NCBI GenBank assembly: GCA_031292175.1 | Contig: JARLHQ010000017.1 | Coordinates: 62,001-126,000 of the forward strand | DNA: 64,000 nucleotides | DNA from: Humidesulfovibrio sp. | GTDB lineage: Bacteria > Desulfobacterota > Desulfovibrionia > Desulfovibrionales > Desulfovibrionaceae | Direction: 5' to 3' | Program-made: the position numbers and the translations under genes | The notes under the pieces: generated by a model | Told to the model about the DNA's origin: nothing | Seen by the model: only the letters and a program-made list of their open reading frames with translations | Databases searched by the model: none | Shown here: positions 4,247 through 22,527 of the stretch, piece by piece | Numbering within the stretch: the stretch's first letter is position 1 | How the letters are laid out: every line of letters begins with the position of its first letter

Positions 4247-4278
4247 CACCCCTTCTCCGACCGACTAACCAGCTCTTT

Positions 4279-4441
4279 GTCCGGTGCCCCGCTCTTCACG
4301 CGGGGTGAAGAGGGAATCCCGTGTAACTCGGGAGCGGACCCGCCGCCGTGAGCCCCGCGAACGATCGGCCCCCAAGCGCGCCACTGGGAGAAACCTCCTG
4401 GGAAGGCCGGGGCCGATGGGGTGAGTCGGAAGACCTGCCGG
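4279..4441 (+). promoter_or_regulatory. Cobalamin (AdoCbl) riboswitch
   Basis: The leader before cbiK carries the conserved blocks of the cobalamin aptamer in order: GGTGCCCCGCTCTTC, AAGAGGGAATCCCGTG, GCGGACCCGCCGCCGTGAG, GCCACTGGGAGAAA, CCTGGGAAGGCC, and GATGGGGTGAGTCGGAAGACCTGCC (B12 box region). In the known family, binding of adenosylcobalamin represses the downstream genes. Here an intrinsic terminator at 4515-4553 supplies a transcriptional expression platform. It would shut off cobalt insertion and B12/precursor transport when the cofactor is plentiful. Confidence 0.93.
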
Positions 4442-4514
4442 ATTCTGTGTCATGGCTTCTCGTCGGCAACGAGGGCTTTTGTCCGACGGGACTATTGAAG
4501 GGGACGAATTCGGG

Positions 4515-15526: not shown

Positions 15527-16015
15527 CTAGTCGCTGTCCATCATGCCGCCGTGGTAGCCCATGCCACCGCCGTAGCCGTTCATCATGCCACCACCGTAGC
15601 CCATGCCGCCGTAGCCCATGCCATGGCCCATGCCGCCGACAGGCACGCCCGCCTTGATCAGTTCCTGGCGCAGCTTCACATGATCCGTGAAGAGCTTGGC
15701 GCTGAGATCGGTGATCTCCTTGGTCAGGCTTTGAATCTTCCGTTCATCGGCGGATCCGCCATACAGCAGGGCGTCCAGCTCGGCATGCTTGACGAAAAGC
15801 TGCTGCCGCAGCTGCGCCGTGGCGTTTTCGTGCTGGCTGTGGATCTTCTGCGCGGCAGCCTGCTTTTCCGGGCTAAGCGCGTAGCCGCCCGCCCCCCATC
15901 CGCCGCCACCCATCATCCCATACCCGTTGCCCATCTGGGCGTTCGCCGGACCGCTTACGCAGACGACAGACGCCAGAGCCAGAGCCAGACATGTGAGACG
16001 CAGAGAAGTTTTCAT
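15527..16015 (-). CDS. Periplasmic ZraP/CpxP/Spy-like protein with Gly/Met/Tyr-rich ends
   Basis: 162 residues. Signal peptide MKTSLRLTCLALALASVVCV...ANA|QMG. The core (about residues 46-125) is a long helical hairpin of the Spy/CpxP/ZraP type: LSPEKQAAAQKIHSQHENATAQLRQQLFVKHAELDALLYG and KIQSLTKEITDLSAKLFTDHVKLRQELIKAG. Low-complexity Gly-Met-Tyr-His segments flank it on both sides (NGYGMMGGGGWGAGG; C-terminal repeats of GMGYGG). In known relatives this fold is a periplasmic chaperone or zinc-linked repressor. The Met/His richness suggests metal binding (inference). Monocistronic on the minus strand. Confidence 0.82.
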   Translation of the reverse strand: MKTSLRLTCLALALASVVCVSGPANAQMGNGYGMMGGGGWGAGGYALSPEKQAAAQKIHSQHENATAQLRQQLFVKHAELDALLYGGSADERKIQSLTKEITDLSAKLFTDHVKLRQELIKAGVPVGGMGHGMGYGGMGYGGGMMNGYGGGMGYHGGMMDSD

Positions 16016-19332: not shown

Positions 19333-19665
19333 CCGCCCCCACAGGCGCGCAAGAGCCTCCGGCAGGACCGGGGGCTCTTGCGTGGGCCAACAAGCGGACG
19401 GTCCATCTCCCCTCCCCCACTGTTCCAGAAAGATCTGCGTGCGCTGTCCTGCGTCTGGCGCGGCGTCCATTTTTGTACGCCCCTGCGCATATTTTGCACG
19501 CCCCCGATTTTGTTTTGTTTTTTAACATGCAATTTCAGCATATTGACTTTGGCACAGCTTCTGCTACTCGGAGAATGGCACAGCTGCGGCGACCCCAGGA
19601 CGCCCGGCTCGAGGAAGATGAACCCAACCGCCCCCGCCGCGCACCGGCGGGCAAGGAGACCGAGC
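19333..19665. other. Intergenic stretch with gpsA hairpin and sigma-54 promoter
   Basis: 333 bases. A strong hairpin CGCAAGAGCC/GGCTCTTGCG at 19348-19382 follows gpsA but lacks a T-run on the plus strand. An AT-rich segment (about 19495-19545) precedes the sigma-54 promoter at 19550-19565. The remaining 100 bases would be the 5' untranslated leader of the secreted-protein gene. No protein gene is evident. Confidence 0.6.
19550..19565 (+). promoter_or_regulatory. Sigma-54 (RpoN) promoter
   Basis: TGGCACA-GCTT-CTGCT matches the -24/-12 consensus TGGCACG-N4-TTGCW at the invariant GG and GC with correct 10-base spacing. It lies about 100 bases upstream of the signal-peptide-bearing gene at 19666. 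Confidence 0.7.
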
Positions 19666-20094
19666 ATGAACCGCAAGAAGCTCAAGATCATTTTCGCCAC
19701 TGTGTTGTGCCTGGGCGCGCTGGCCTCACCCGCCATGGCGCAGATCAACATCAGCATCGACCTGGGCGTCCCGCCGCCGCCGGACCGCGTGGAGGTGGTG
19801 CATGAAGGCCGCCCCGGCTTTTTCTGGATTCCCGGCTTCTGGTTCTGGGACGGCCACCGGCACGCCTGGTCCGAGGGCCGCTGGGAACACGAGCGCCCGG
19901 GCCACCGCTGGGTGCCCGCGCGCTGGGAGGACCGTGGCGGCAGGCACCACTATGAGCCGGGCCGCTGGGAAGCGGAGGGCGGCCCCGGCAAACATGGCCG
20001 CGGCAACGCCTACGGCCATGATCGCGGCGAAGACCGCGGCGGCGATCGCGGCGGCGACCACCGCGACGAGGGGCACGGCCGAGGACGCGAATAG
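19666..20094 (+). CDS. Secreted YXWGXW/WXPGXW-repeat protein
   Basis: 142 residues. A cleavable signal peptide (MNRKKLKIIFATVLCLGALASPAMA|QIN) is followed by repeated aromatic motifs, GFFWIPGFWFWDGHRHAW, EGRWEHERPGHRWVPARWED and HHYEPGRWE, as in YXWGXW repeat proteins. The C-terminal 40 residues are Gly/Asp/Arg/His-rich (HDRGEDRGGDRGGDH). RBS AAGGAG lies 9 bases before the ATG. A sigma-54 promoter precedes it and an intrinsic terminator follows. The function of this family is not established; surface or periplasmic location is inferred. Confidence 0.82.
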   Translation: MNRKKLKIIFATVLCLGALASPAMAQINISIDLGVPPPPDRVEVVHEGRPGFFWIPGFWFWDGHRHAWSEGRWEHERPGHRWVPARWEDRGGRHHYEPGRWEAEGGPGKHGRGNAYGHDRGEDRGGDRGGDHRDEGHGRGRE

Positions 20095-20153: not shown

Positions 20154-20276
20154 GCGTCGAGCGCTGCGTAAGCGTCCGCCCCCACCCTTCATTCGTCATG
20201 GCGCGCGGTTGGCTCCAGGGCTTTGTCCCAAGCTTCGCGCCTGGACTTCCGTGAGCGCCACTGCTACACGCTGCGC

Positions 20277-20477
20277 ATGAAAACAATCACTGGTTCCTTG
20301 GTCCCCGGCAAAAATGGCATGTTGCACCCCATCTTCACCTGTGCCTGCAAGCACGTAATGGCGGACTACCAAATGGCGCCGACGATCGCTGTGGCGTGCC
20401 CGAAATGCCAGGCCACAAAGACCTTCCGCATCGTCGAGTTCGCCCCCAGGCAGTGGCGCATCAAGCCTATCGGCTAA
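20277..20477 (+). CDS. Small cysteine-containing hypothetical protein
   Basis: 66 residues from the ATG at 20277 (84 if begun at 20223). Two Cys pairs, CAC in FTCACKHVM and CPKC in VACPKCQATKTF, suggest a compact zinc-ribbon-like fold, with basic C-terminus. No good ribosome binding site is visible before either start and no family is recognised. The amino-acid pattern looks protein-like, but expression is unproven. Confidence 0.45.
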   Translation: MKTITGSLVPGKNGMLHPIFTCACKHVMADYQMAPTIAVACPKCQATKTFRIVEFAPRQWRIKPIG

Positions 20478-20555: not shown

Positions 20556-20879
20556 TCAATAGTTCAAAATCCGGTCGGCCTTCTTCACCAGCCCATAGAG
20601 CGTCTTCATGTTCGACATTGGGGCCGGGCAATGTTCCGCATCCACGCCGTGGATGCCAAGACACTTGCCTCAAGCGGCAAGATTGCCCTCGCTCAAGCCA
20701 AAGAGTTTGGCCTGCTCCAACAACGGATACTGGAGGCTGTCACCCTTGGCGAAGGCCACGGCTGGGCCGTTGAGAAAAATGGACACCTCGTCGCCTTCCT
20801 CAAGCGCCAGGTTTCCAAACCGAAAAGCGTTCCACTGGACCTCTGGGTTATCGGTGGAGATGATGATAAGTATCTGCAT
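20556..20879 (-). CDS. DsrE-like selenoprotein (in-frame UGA read as selenocysteine)
   Basis: 107 residues if the in-frame UGA at 20670-20672 is decoded. Residues 1-69 (MQILIIISTDNPEVQWNAFRF, GDEVSIFLNGPAVAFAKGDS) are a DsrE/DsrF-family N-terminus. After UGA the same frame continues GKCLGIHGVDAEHCPAPMS and NMKTLYGLVKKADRILNY, the family's C-terminus, then stops. The UGA falls where relatives have the first Cys of a C-x-x-C motif, giving U-G-K-C. A hairpin starts immediately after UGA. DsrE-like proteins take part in sulfur transfer, and selenocysteine versions are known in deltaproteobacteria. A promoter-like TTGCGT-N17-TATCCG lies upstream. The alternative is a nonsense-broken gene, but the intact downstream frame and hairpin argue against that. 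Confidence 0.85.
20627..20669 (-). promoter_or_regulatory. Candidate bacterial SECIS hairpin
   Basis: In the mRNA the 43 bases right after UGA fold into one extended hairpin: outer stem GGCAA/UUGCC, then UGU/ACA and two G-U pairs, then an 8-bp apical stem GCAUCCAC/GUGGAUGC with loop GGC. The loop lies 22-24 bases after UGA, within the range seen for SelB-binding elements, and has G at the loop as expected. Confidence 0.75.
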
Positions 20880-20917
20880 TGCCTATTGCAACCTCCTGTG
20901 CTGATTCATCTTTTTTA

Positions 20918-21135: not shown

Positions 21136-22527
21136 TCACTTCCCGATGCAGAATTTGGAGAAGATGGCTTCCAGCACCTCATCCGGGGCGATCTCGCCGG
21201 TGATCTCCGCAAGGGCCCGGCAGGCGGCGTCCAGGCGCAGGCCCAGAATGTCATAGGGCAGCCCGGCCTCGGTCTCCCCGGCCAGGGCCAGCAGCTCCTC
21301 GCGGGCCTGGCGGACGTTCGCGGCCTGGCGGGCGTTGGGCGCGGCCTCGTCCGGGTCCGGCTCGCCCGCGCCGCGCAGCAGGCGCTCACGCAGGCAGGCG
21401 CACAGTTCCTCCAGACCCAGCCCGGTCTTTGCCGAGATGCGCACGCAGGCCAACCCCATCCCGGCGGCGAACACGGCCGCCTCGTCCGGCGCGGCGGGCA
21501 GGTCGCACTTATTGAGCACCACCAGGGCCCGCGCGGCGTCGAGGCCGGAGAGCGCCTCGCGGTCCCCGGCCCGCAGGGGGCGGCTGGCGTCGAGCACATA
21601 GAGCACGGCCTCGGCCCGGGCCATGAACTCCCGGCTCAGGTCCTGCCCCGCCGCCTCCACCGCGTCCAAGCCGGCGGCGTGGCGCAGGCCGGCGGTGTCC
21701 ACCAGGCGCACCAGGAGGCCGGAAAGGTCCAGCTGCTCCTCCAGATAGTCGCGCGTGGTGCCCGGGGCATCGGACACGAGCGCCCGCGCCCGGCCCACCA
21801 GGGCGTTCATGAGGCTTGACTTGCCCGCGTTGACCCGCCCCGCCAGCACGGCAACGAGCCCTTCGCGCCAGGCGCGCGCGCGCTCCACCCCGGCCAGAAG
21901 CGCGGCCAGGGCCTCGGCCACGGCCAGGGCCTCGGCGCGCAGGGCGTCCAGGGGCAGGCACTCCACATCCTCGTCCGGAAAATCGACCGCCAGGCAGAGC
22001 TGGGCGCGCAGGGCCTCCAAGCGTCCGCGCAGGACGCCGATGCGTTCGGAGAGCGCGCCGGAAAGCTTCATCTGCGCCAGATGCAGGGCCGCGCGGCTGG
22101 GCGCGGCGATGGTTTCGGCGATGGCCTCGGCCTGGGCCAGGTCGAGCTTGCCGTTTTTGAAGGCGCGCAGGGAGAATTCGCCGGGCCGGGCCAGGCGCGC
22201 GCCGCGCGCCAGAAGCTCCTCCAGCACGGCGCGCAGCACCGCCGGGCCGCCGTGGCAGAACAGCTCGGCCACGTCCTCGCCGGTGAAGGAGCCGGGGCCG
22301 GGCATGAAGGCGGCCAGGACCTCGTCCAGCACGCGCCCGCGCGCGTCCAGGAGCTGGCCGTGGTGCAGGCGGTAGGGCTTGAGTCCCGCGAAGCCGGGCC
22401 GGGAGGAATGGAACAGGTCTGTCGCCAGGGCGCGGGCGCGCGGGCCGCTCAAGCGGATGATGCCCACGGCGCCGGGTCCGCTGGCCGTGGCGATGGCGGC
22501 GATGGTGTCCGTGCCCGCGTTGCCCAT
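21136..22527 (-). CDS. mnmE: tRNA modification GTPase MnmE (TrmE)
   Basis: 463 residues, full length. With MnmG it installs the carboxymethylaminomethyl group on wobble U34 of some tRNAs. The N-terminal folate-binding domain begins DTIAAIATASGPGAVGIIRLSG. The G domain sits inside a helical domain: G1 GRVNAGKSS, G2/G3 DAPGTTRDY and DTAGLRH, G4 NKCD. The C-terminal FCIGK motif, with the essential Cys, is intact. It is the last gene of the rpmH-rnpA-yidD-yidC-jag-mnmE cluster, the conserved order in many bacteria. Confidence 0.96.
   Translation of the reverse strand: MGNAGTDTIAAIATASGPGAVGIIRLSGPRARALATDLFHSSRPGFAGLKPYRLHHGQLLDARGRVLDEVLAAFMPGPGSFTGEDVAELFCHGGPAVLRAVLEELLARGARLARPGEFSLRAFKNGKLDLAQAEAIAETIAAPSRAALHLAQMKLSGALSERIGVLRGRLEALRAQLCLAVDFPDEDVECLPLDALRAEALAVAEALAALLAGVERARAWREGLVAVLAGRVNAGKSSLMNALVGRARALVSDAPGTTRDYLEEQLDLSGLLVRLVDTAGLRHAAGLDAVEAAGQDLSREFMARAEAVLYVLDASRPLRAGDREALSGLDAARALVVLNKCDLPAAPDEAAVFAAGMGLACVRISAKTGLGLEELCACLRERLLRGAGEPDPDEAAPNARQAANVRQAREELLALAGETEAGLPYDILGLRLDAACRALAEITGEIAPDEVLEAIFSKFCIGK

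Follow-up and report, generated by a model that had tools for sequence, protein, structure and literature searches.

A short DsrE-like reading frame of Humidesulfovibrio sp. is interrupted by one in-frame UGA codon, which raises the questions of whether this codon ends the protein or encodes selenocysteine (Sec), and of what such a protein, if made at full length, would do. The gene lies on the minus strand at positions 20556..20879 of the window, the whole 64,000-nucleotide stretch of DNA that was analysed. It runs from an ATG at 20879-20877 to a TGA stop at 20558-20556 and is preceded by a likely ribosome-binding site, AGGAGG (20892..20897, minus strand), read by eye from the sequence 12 nt before the ATG. 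Under the standard code this gene would stop at codon 70 (UGA, 20670..20672, minus strand) and give a stub of 69 residues; its product is very probably a complete selenoprotein of 107 residues, and with the TGA read through the motif around codon 70 translates as U-G-K-C. The original prediction had described a DsrE frame with a single UGA at codon 70 followed by 37 open codons, and both the translation and a Pfam match agree with it, the read-through protein matching DsrE (PF02635) over residues 1-106 (E 9.8e-10, 39.1 bits, cut-off 22.7). At this composition, 37 open codons would follow a stop by chance in about 54% of cases, and the hairpin that lies behind the UGA is equalled in folding by 7 of 200 shuffles (z -1.99), so frame and hairpin of the window gene alone make a weak case. 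It is the comparison with relatives that takes the recoding of UGA 70 beyond chance. A promoter scan returned a single match, which overlaps the gene start and which we do not believe.

UGA and cysteine codons among relatives

We compared codon 70 across loci named from GTDB genomes, keeping 80 of 93 relatives, and found TGA in 61 and a Cys codon in the other 19. In a closer alignment 26 orthologues were compared, and the wider family alignment includes 28 extra regions chosen from 94 match rows of a phylum sample and four from a search of 99 genomes. Sec or Cys, and no unrelated residue, occupies position 70 in all 115 rows kept, a set that does not cover DsrE proteins as a whole and has the weakest matches outside it. 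The closest named relative, L094 from a Humidesulfovibrio MAG, is 65% identical to the window protein. A sequence profile aligns the Sec column of the family with the first Cys of the C-x-x-C of E. coli YchN (1jx7), so that the UGA replaces the first Cys of such a motif, as had been proposed from the window sequence, both YchN and the 19 Cys relatives having Cys there. These alignments show UGA 70 standing where the homologues have their active-site Cys.

The search of 99 genomes, that of the window included, gave a match in 35. One TGA was present in 39 of the 44 match rows, its place being verified in the translated rows, with the weakest rows outside that check, and the remaining five comprised two full-length Cys proteins and three fragments or weak matches without TGA. 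In the phylum sample of 395 genomes, 80 had a match, and TGA was found in 28 of the best 29 match rows, two of the 28 also carrying TAG. Over 16 chosen pairs of relatives pN/pS was 0.175 before the UGA and 0.202 after it, pairs with unequal lengths or positions adding nothing to the part concerned; judged by this ratio, the codons downstream of UGA 70 are under purifying selection.

UxxC selenoproteins of the DsrE-like kind have been reported from the Sargasso Sea (Zhang et al. 2005, PMC1088965) and, in 2006, from Desulfovibrio vulgaris (PMC1794560), the latter bearing out the statement in the original prediction that they are known in some deltaproteobacteria. 'DsrE 1' and 'DsrE 2' selenoproteins are listed for GOS (PMC2398784), and the group is treated in reviews of 2022 (PMC9312934) and 2026 (PMC13188914), the more recent of which calls its functions largely uncharacterized. 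Wherever these five sources, in the text covered, state the motif of DsrE-like selenoproteins, it is UxxC. As described there, the published proteins share with the window gene membership of PF02635, Sec in U-x-x-C and a SECIS after the UGA, and there is no essential difference. D. vulgaris is now Nitratidesulfovibrio vulgaris; members from two further Nitratidesulfovibrio species, L103 and L113, share 58% and 56% identity with the query. The window gene belongs to this already known selenoprotein family, and the moderately new part is the pattern of the family and not the gene. The wider family seen here has U-x-x-L, U-x-x-S and U-x-x-A types in addition to the published form; in the passages covered of the open-access literature on DsrE-like selenoproteins, supplements aside, we found no mention of DsrE proteins of these types.

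Some loci hold more than one copy of the gene or an irregular one. In the same-genus genome G010 the gene was matched in two frames (L044:1442-1758, residues 1-35 and 21-107), owing to a frameshift or an assembly error. Genome G029 has two copies on opposite strands (L062 and L063), which do not differ at all over about 1.4 kb around the Sec codon. Two DsrE-like genes stand close to each other at L243, L245, L247 and L265; three of these four pairs consist of one Cys and one Sec form, and the pair at L265 of two Sec forms (ULTC and UGAC).

The stem-loop behind the UGA

A 43-nt hairpin, put forward in the original prediction together with its 8-bp apical stem, lies directly after the UGA (20627..20669, minus strand). 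It is present in the predicted minimum-energy structure (-23.5 kcal/mol) with the 8-bp apical stem and a GGC triloop, and is recovered in relatives, among which its basal part varies. The conserved element, drawn from covariation over 55 Sec genes, is an apical stem of 7 bp (20639..20655, minus strand) with a GGN triloop at 20648-20646. All 61 Sec genes have the GGN apical loop 21 nt after the UGA. The full set of seven stem pairs is formed in 53 of the 61 Sec genes, compared with none of the 19 Cys genes, among which is L170 (CQKS). The 61 include L132, which has a TAG in frame and is absent from alignments A2 and A4 and from the family tree. Random synonymous recoding of 60 Sec genes gave all seven pairs in 3.1%.

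Over 55 distinct Sec sequences, 98.4% of the 385 cells of the apical stem are paired, and four of the seven pairs show changes on both sides (51 cells); the same columns in 18 Cys genes, the control alignment A3 from which L170 is absent, are paired in 21.4% of cells. The covariation score of the stem was 0.441, against 0.172 in shuffles, none of 500 of which reached it, and slid versions of the stem scored 0.048 to 0.151. The count of pairs changed on both sides and the count of pair types were not above shuffles (230/500 and 133/500). Bacterial SECIS elements are described as having a guanosine in a small apical loop (PMC1088965), a feature that the window stem-loop, following the UGA with G in such a loop, also has. 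The comparison across Sec and Cys genes shows that the stem-loop behind UGA 70 is, by its sequence record, a bacterial SECIS element under selection.

The element also appears to leave its mark on the protein. His77, Gly78 and Val79 are invariant in the 26 nearest Sec proteins and are not kept in Cys forms, and their codons (CAC GGN GTG) fall on the stem-loop, from which we infer that the RNA and not catalysis fixes these residues. The stem is retained in a clade in which the protein reads S-R-G-L in place of I/L-H-G-V. Because their codons pair, the flanking residues vary in step, in most cases Ile with Asp and Leu with Glu (L098, L100 and L101 are exceptions). An RNA element within a gene would in this way shape the protein sequence, and invariant residues near Sec need not be catalytic.

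Selenocysteine genes in the genome and genus

A search of the genome for selA, selB, selC and selD, proposed in the original prediction as a check, was answered for selD and not for the other three. The selD gene itself contains an in-frame TGA, at residue 11 of its match, and we also identified three formate dehydrogenase (FdhA) genes with one TGA each in R-I/V-U-H context. In the same assembly, which is 81% complete, selA had no match, and the best match to the selB model was below the cut-off, covered positions 1-267 of 581 only and was rejected as selB, its sequence reading as EF-Tu. The tRNA-Sec gene (selC) was not found among the 150 of 527 candidates scored; five of the seven tRNA-Sec matches were assigned by ARAGORN to tRNA-Trp, tRNA-Ser (two), tRNA-Gly and tRNA-Tyr, and the other two were weaker. 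Nominally this outcome speaks against recoding, and the undetected selA, selB and selC are the strongest point against the selenoprotein reading.

Within the genus selA was matched in 12 of 15 genomes, including all eight that are near-complete, and tRNA-Sec scored above 80 bits in 13 of the 15, the genome studied here being among the two without it. The selA regions of the genus have neighbour genes common to all eight that were fetched, one region being resolved by models as folC, selA, an aminopeptidase gene, selB and murA. We compared a 15-kb sel block with the genome of the window and obtained GGDEF-type paralogues, pieces over a neighbour of another kind, EF-Tu-like pieces of selB, tRNA pieces and a single 47-base piece in the folC stretch, with nothing over selA, the aminopeptidase gene or murA (40 of 373 candidates scored). 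Orthologues of the block should have shown, since paralogues at 64-68% identity did. Likewise, a block of 20 kb surrounding the selC gene in a relative gave pieces of 38 to 72 bases only (40 of 271 candidates scored). Given the incompleteness of the assembly, the surrounding blocks that are also unseen and the presence of sel genes in the genus, an assembly gap is the best explanation, and it is likely, if not proven, that selA, selB and selC are missing through such a gap.

The undetected genes would suit a reading in which UGA 70 is a true stop that leaves a 69-residue truncated protein or a decaying gene. Against this, the TGA is kept in different orders and is followed there by a covarying stem, purifying selection acts on the codons after it, SelD and three FdhA genes that contain an in-frame TGA belong to the same genome, and the sel blocks seemingly lie in assembly gaps; we consider a true stop highly improbable. 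Cys in the homologues, a covarying stem in Sec and not in Cys forms, selection downstream and other Sec genes in the genome together argue for TGA 70 as a Sec codon. The gene at 20879-20556 would accordingly be read as a DsrE/YchN-fold selenoprotein with Sec70, the recoding itself being, on this comparative evidence, close to certain. From what is known of bacterial Sec insertion, SelB with Sec-tRNA would bind the hairpin and insert Sec at UGA 70, and without selenium the product would be the 69-residue fragment.

Fold, partner cysteine and candidate functions

In the predicted structure of the window protein (mean pLDDT 95.8) Sec70 ends strand 66-70, before helix 71-76. Foldseek at E up to 0.001 returned eight matches, namely 3pnx (two chains), YchN, 3mc3, BT1422, 2qs7 and two DsrEFH chains (2hy5). 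Among the best solved relatives are 3pnx, a putative DsrE sulfurtransferase, and E. coli YchN (1jx7), which has a TM-score of 0.82 by query length to the model and which, in a sequence-profile search of PDB chains with E up to 10, was the sole match (E 1.7e-6). DsrE/DsrF-like proteins and DsrEFH complete this group. The model places the window protein in the DsrE/YchN alpha/beta fold. YchN differs from it in having Cys and not Sec and 117 residues. DsrE of DsrEFH and TusD of TusBCD share the fold (2hy5_B, 2hy5_C) and carry sulfur on a single Cys, in place of which the window protein has Sec; searched against NCBIfam models at E up to 1 it had no match, including to TIGR03012 (TusD) and TIGR03527 (YedF). 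YedF is described as a SirA-DsrE fusion with a DsrE-like domain and a CGxC motif, linked to selenium metabolism (PMC5322559), whereas by Pfam the window protein is a DsrE domain only. For DsrEFH of Allochromatium it is reported that sulfur was bound to Cys78 of DsrE and not to DsrF or DsrH, that this residue and also Cys20 of DsrH are essential in vivo, and that DsrEFH does not occur in sulfate reducers (PMC3397948).

The residue three positions after Sec or Cys varies over the 115 family rows (Cys 85, Leu 21, Ser 6, Ala 3). Cys is absent there from 28 of the 87 Sec rows, which include the window, compared with 2 of the 28 Cys rows, L147 being counted as Sec in these numbers and carried as Cys in the clade group table. 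Seven of those 28 Sec rows (L124, L125, L127, L138, L141, L243_b and L247) contain no further Cys anywhere in the frame, making an intramolecular Se-S bond impossible in them. L127 belongs to the 29-row clade of the window, in which the +3 Cys is kept (UGKC) in 28 rows. Cys occurs at aligned residue 8 in 16 of the 21 Leu-type Sec rows (L126, L128-L131, L133-L137, L139, L140 and L142-L145, not L132, L138 or L141) and in 2 of the 94 other rows, and could be a relocated partner Cys. A family tree built without the active-site columns, which has 92 columns and many weak forks, requires at least five Sec/Cys changes and also five between Cys and another residue at +3. Left out of it were the partial or repeated rows L247b, L255 (frame shifted at the active site), L266a and L267 and the loci L174-L200. 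From these sequences the partner Cys at +3 appears dispensable in the family, and what evolution preserves would be the Sec residue itself and not the textbook pair.

The gene stands in differing settings. In the window mnmE (21136..22527, minus strand; TIGR00450, 307.8 bits) lies upstream on the same strand and is a neighbour only. The window is alone in this arrangement among 107 stretches, several of them one place twice, and we rejected a link through mnmE to tRNA thiolation or selenation. Across 25 further loci of the order, ORFs other than those at the place of the gene itself have counterparts in four others at most. Three same-genus genomes (L060/L094, L070/L104 and L077/L118) place the gene after an ETF-QO-like gene and before EtfB-like and EtfA-like genes, all on one strand, and at three further same-genus loci (L076/L119, L079 and L123) it is flanked by trmD-rplS and by rnhB, trmD being upstream. 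Such differences within one genus indicate that the selenoprotein gene moves; the ETF cluster suggests redox work, and the neighbours point to no steady partner. With mnmE and jag scanned among the genes near it in the window, we found no sulfur-relay neighbour, and the open-access literature returned no biochemical data on any family member.

Many relatives lack the +3 Cys, so the chemistry of the family can do without Cys73. A single selenol at residue 70 may bind sulfane sulfur (or selenium) in an Se-S or Se-Se adduct and hand it to a partner protein, as Cys78 of DsrE does with its persulfide, and Cys73 of the window member could help to release it. The main competitor is a Sec-x-x-Cys redox enzyme, in which Sec70 would attack an oxidised substrate and Cys73 would resolve the intermediate through an intramolecular Se-S bond, with electrons perhaps coming from a flavoprotein chain. 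Such an enzyme is implied by the UxxC label as used in the literature covered and would fit the near-constant UGKC of the window's clade, the Cys8 of many Leu-type members and the ETF-QO-like and two ETF genes around the gene in three genomes of the genus. Even within the genus, however, these flavoprotein neighbours are not constant, three loci having rplS/rnhB and the window gene lying behind mnmE. An obligatory Sec-x-x-Cys couple is also hard to square with the 28 Sec rows without +3 Cys and above all with the seven single-Sec proteins, which fit a carrier that relies on a partner protein to resolve its adduct. We regard the enzyme as rather unlikely. The family evidence favours the single-selenol carrier over it, a preference we hold tentatively, the flavoprotein neighbours having moved our estimate from evenly balanced to slightly below that. 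The persulfide or selenosulfide carrier of the original prediction survives to this extent, a single selenol being favoured by the Sec rows without +3 Cys, while the ETF neighbours and the Cys kept in the window's own clade weigh against it.

A role in metal or metalloid response, in which Sec70 would bind a soft metal or metalloid and the gene be under ArsR-type control, is suggested by genes for ArsR-like HTH proteins, frequently accompanied by another small winged-helix gene and in some cases by a methyltransferase gene, near L147, L149, L151, L158, L160, L167, L242, L243, L247, L248, L250, L251 and L252. By type, and within the DNA available for each locus, an ArsR-like gene is near 9 of 18 CGTC, 6 of 20 UGKL, 7 of 20 UGVC and 4 of 8 UGSC/UGTC loci. 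These neighbours stand by distant Sec and Cys members, outside the clade of the window, whose own UGKC type has one at only 1 of 27 loci. A palindrome, ATAGA-N5-TCTAT, points the same way: it lies 38 or 39 bp before the ATG at seven named UGKC-type loci (L100:2962, L101:2962, L102:2962, L106:2962, L110:2962, L111:2963 and L113:2962) and at L031/L072 (L072:8545), and 66 bp before it in L120 (L120:2935). The pattern ATAGA-N(3-7)-TCTAT had 16 matches in 1.68 Mb of fetched DNA, 12 of which are the N5 form before a family gene, at nine places when repeats are set aside, and the palindrome is probably the operator of a regulator. It has no match in the window or its assembly, however, and the window protein has the fold and the active-site placement of sulfur carriers. 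Nor do 24 aligned rows of neighbouring ArsR-like proteins have a conserved Cys pair; we find the metal-response reading improbable. SqrR is a persulfide-sensing ArsR-type regulator, and we rejected the neighbours as SqrR-like on the same alignment. The palindrome was also rejected as the mark of a shared regulon: in 11 of 15 genomes it was no more frequent than its reversed control, and a common target did not emerge.

The account that best covers the window gene, a DsrE/YchN-fold selenoprotein with a SECIS element whose Sec70 selenol carries sulfane sulfur or selenium, is on balance a probable one. For the family we put forward, as a possibility that we judge a little short of even, that DsrE-like selenoproteins are a broad set of single-selenol carriers and not one UxxC redox family, the partner Cys having been lost more than once, Sec and Cys having been interchanged at least five times, and the SECIS stem fixing His-Gly-Val and the co-changes that flank it. 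If this is true, some members keep Sec as the sole redox residue of the protein. A Sec protein with no other redox residue must act through a partner, and the selenol itself would then be the function, which makes a survey of the family a test case for why selenium is kept.

Other features of the window lie apart from the selenoprotein gene. A WXXGXW-repeat protein is encoded at 19378-20094 (plus strand), and its gene is adjoined by an 84-residue ORF (20223-20477, plus strand) with a zinc-ribbon match below cut-off. A heavy-metal resistance domain protein is encoded at 15527-16015 (minus strand), the ZraP model also matching it, below its cut-off, and a cobalamin riboswitch was identified at 4265-4456 on the plus strand (108.5 bits).
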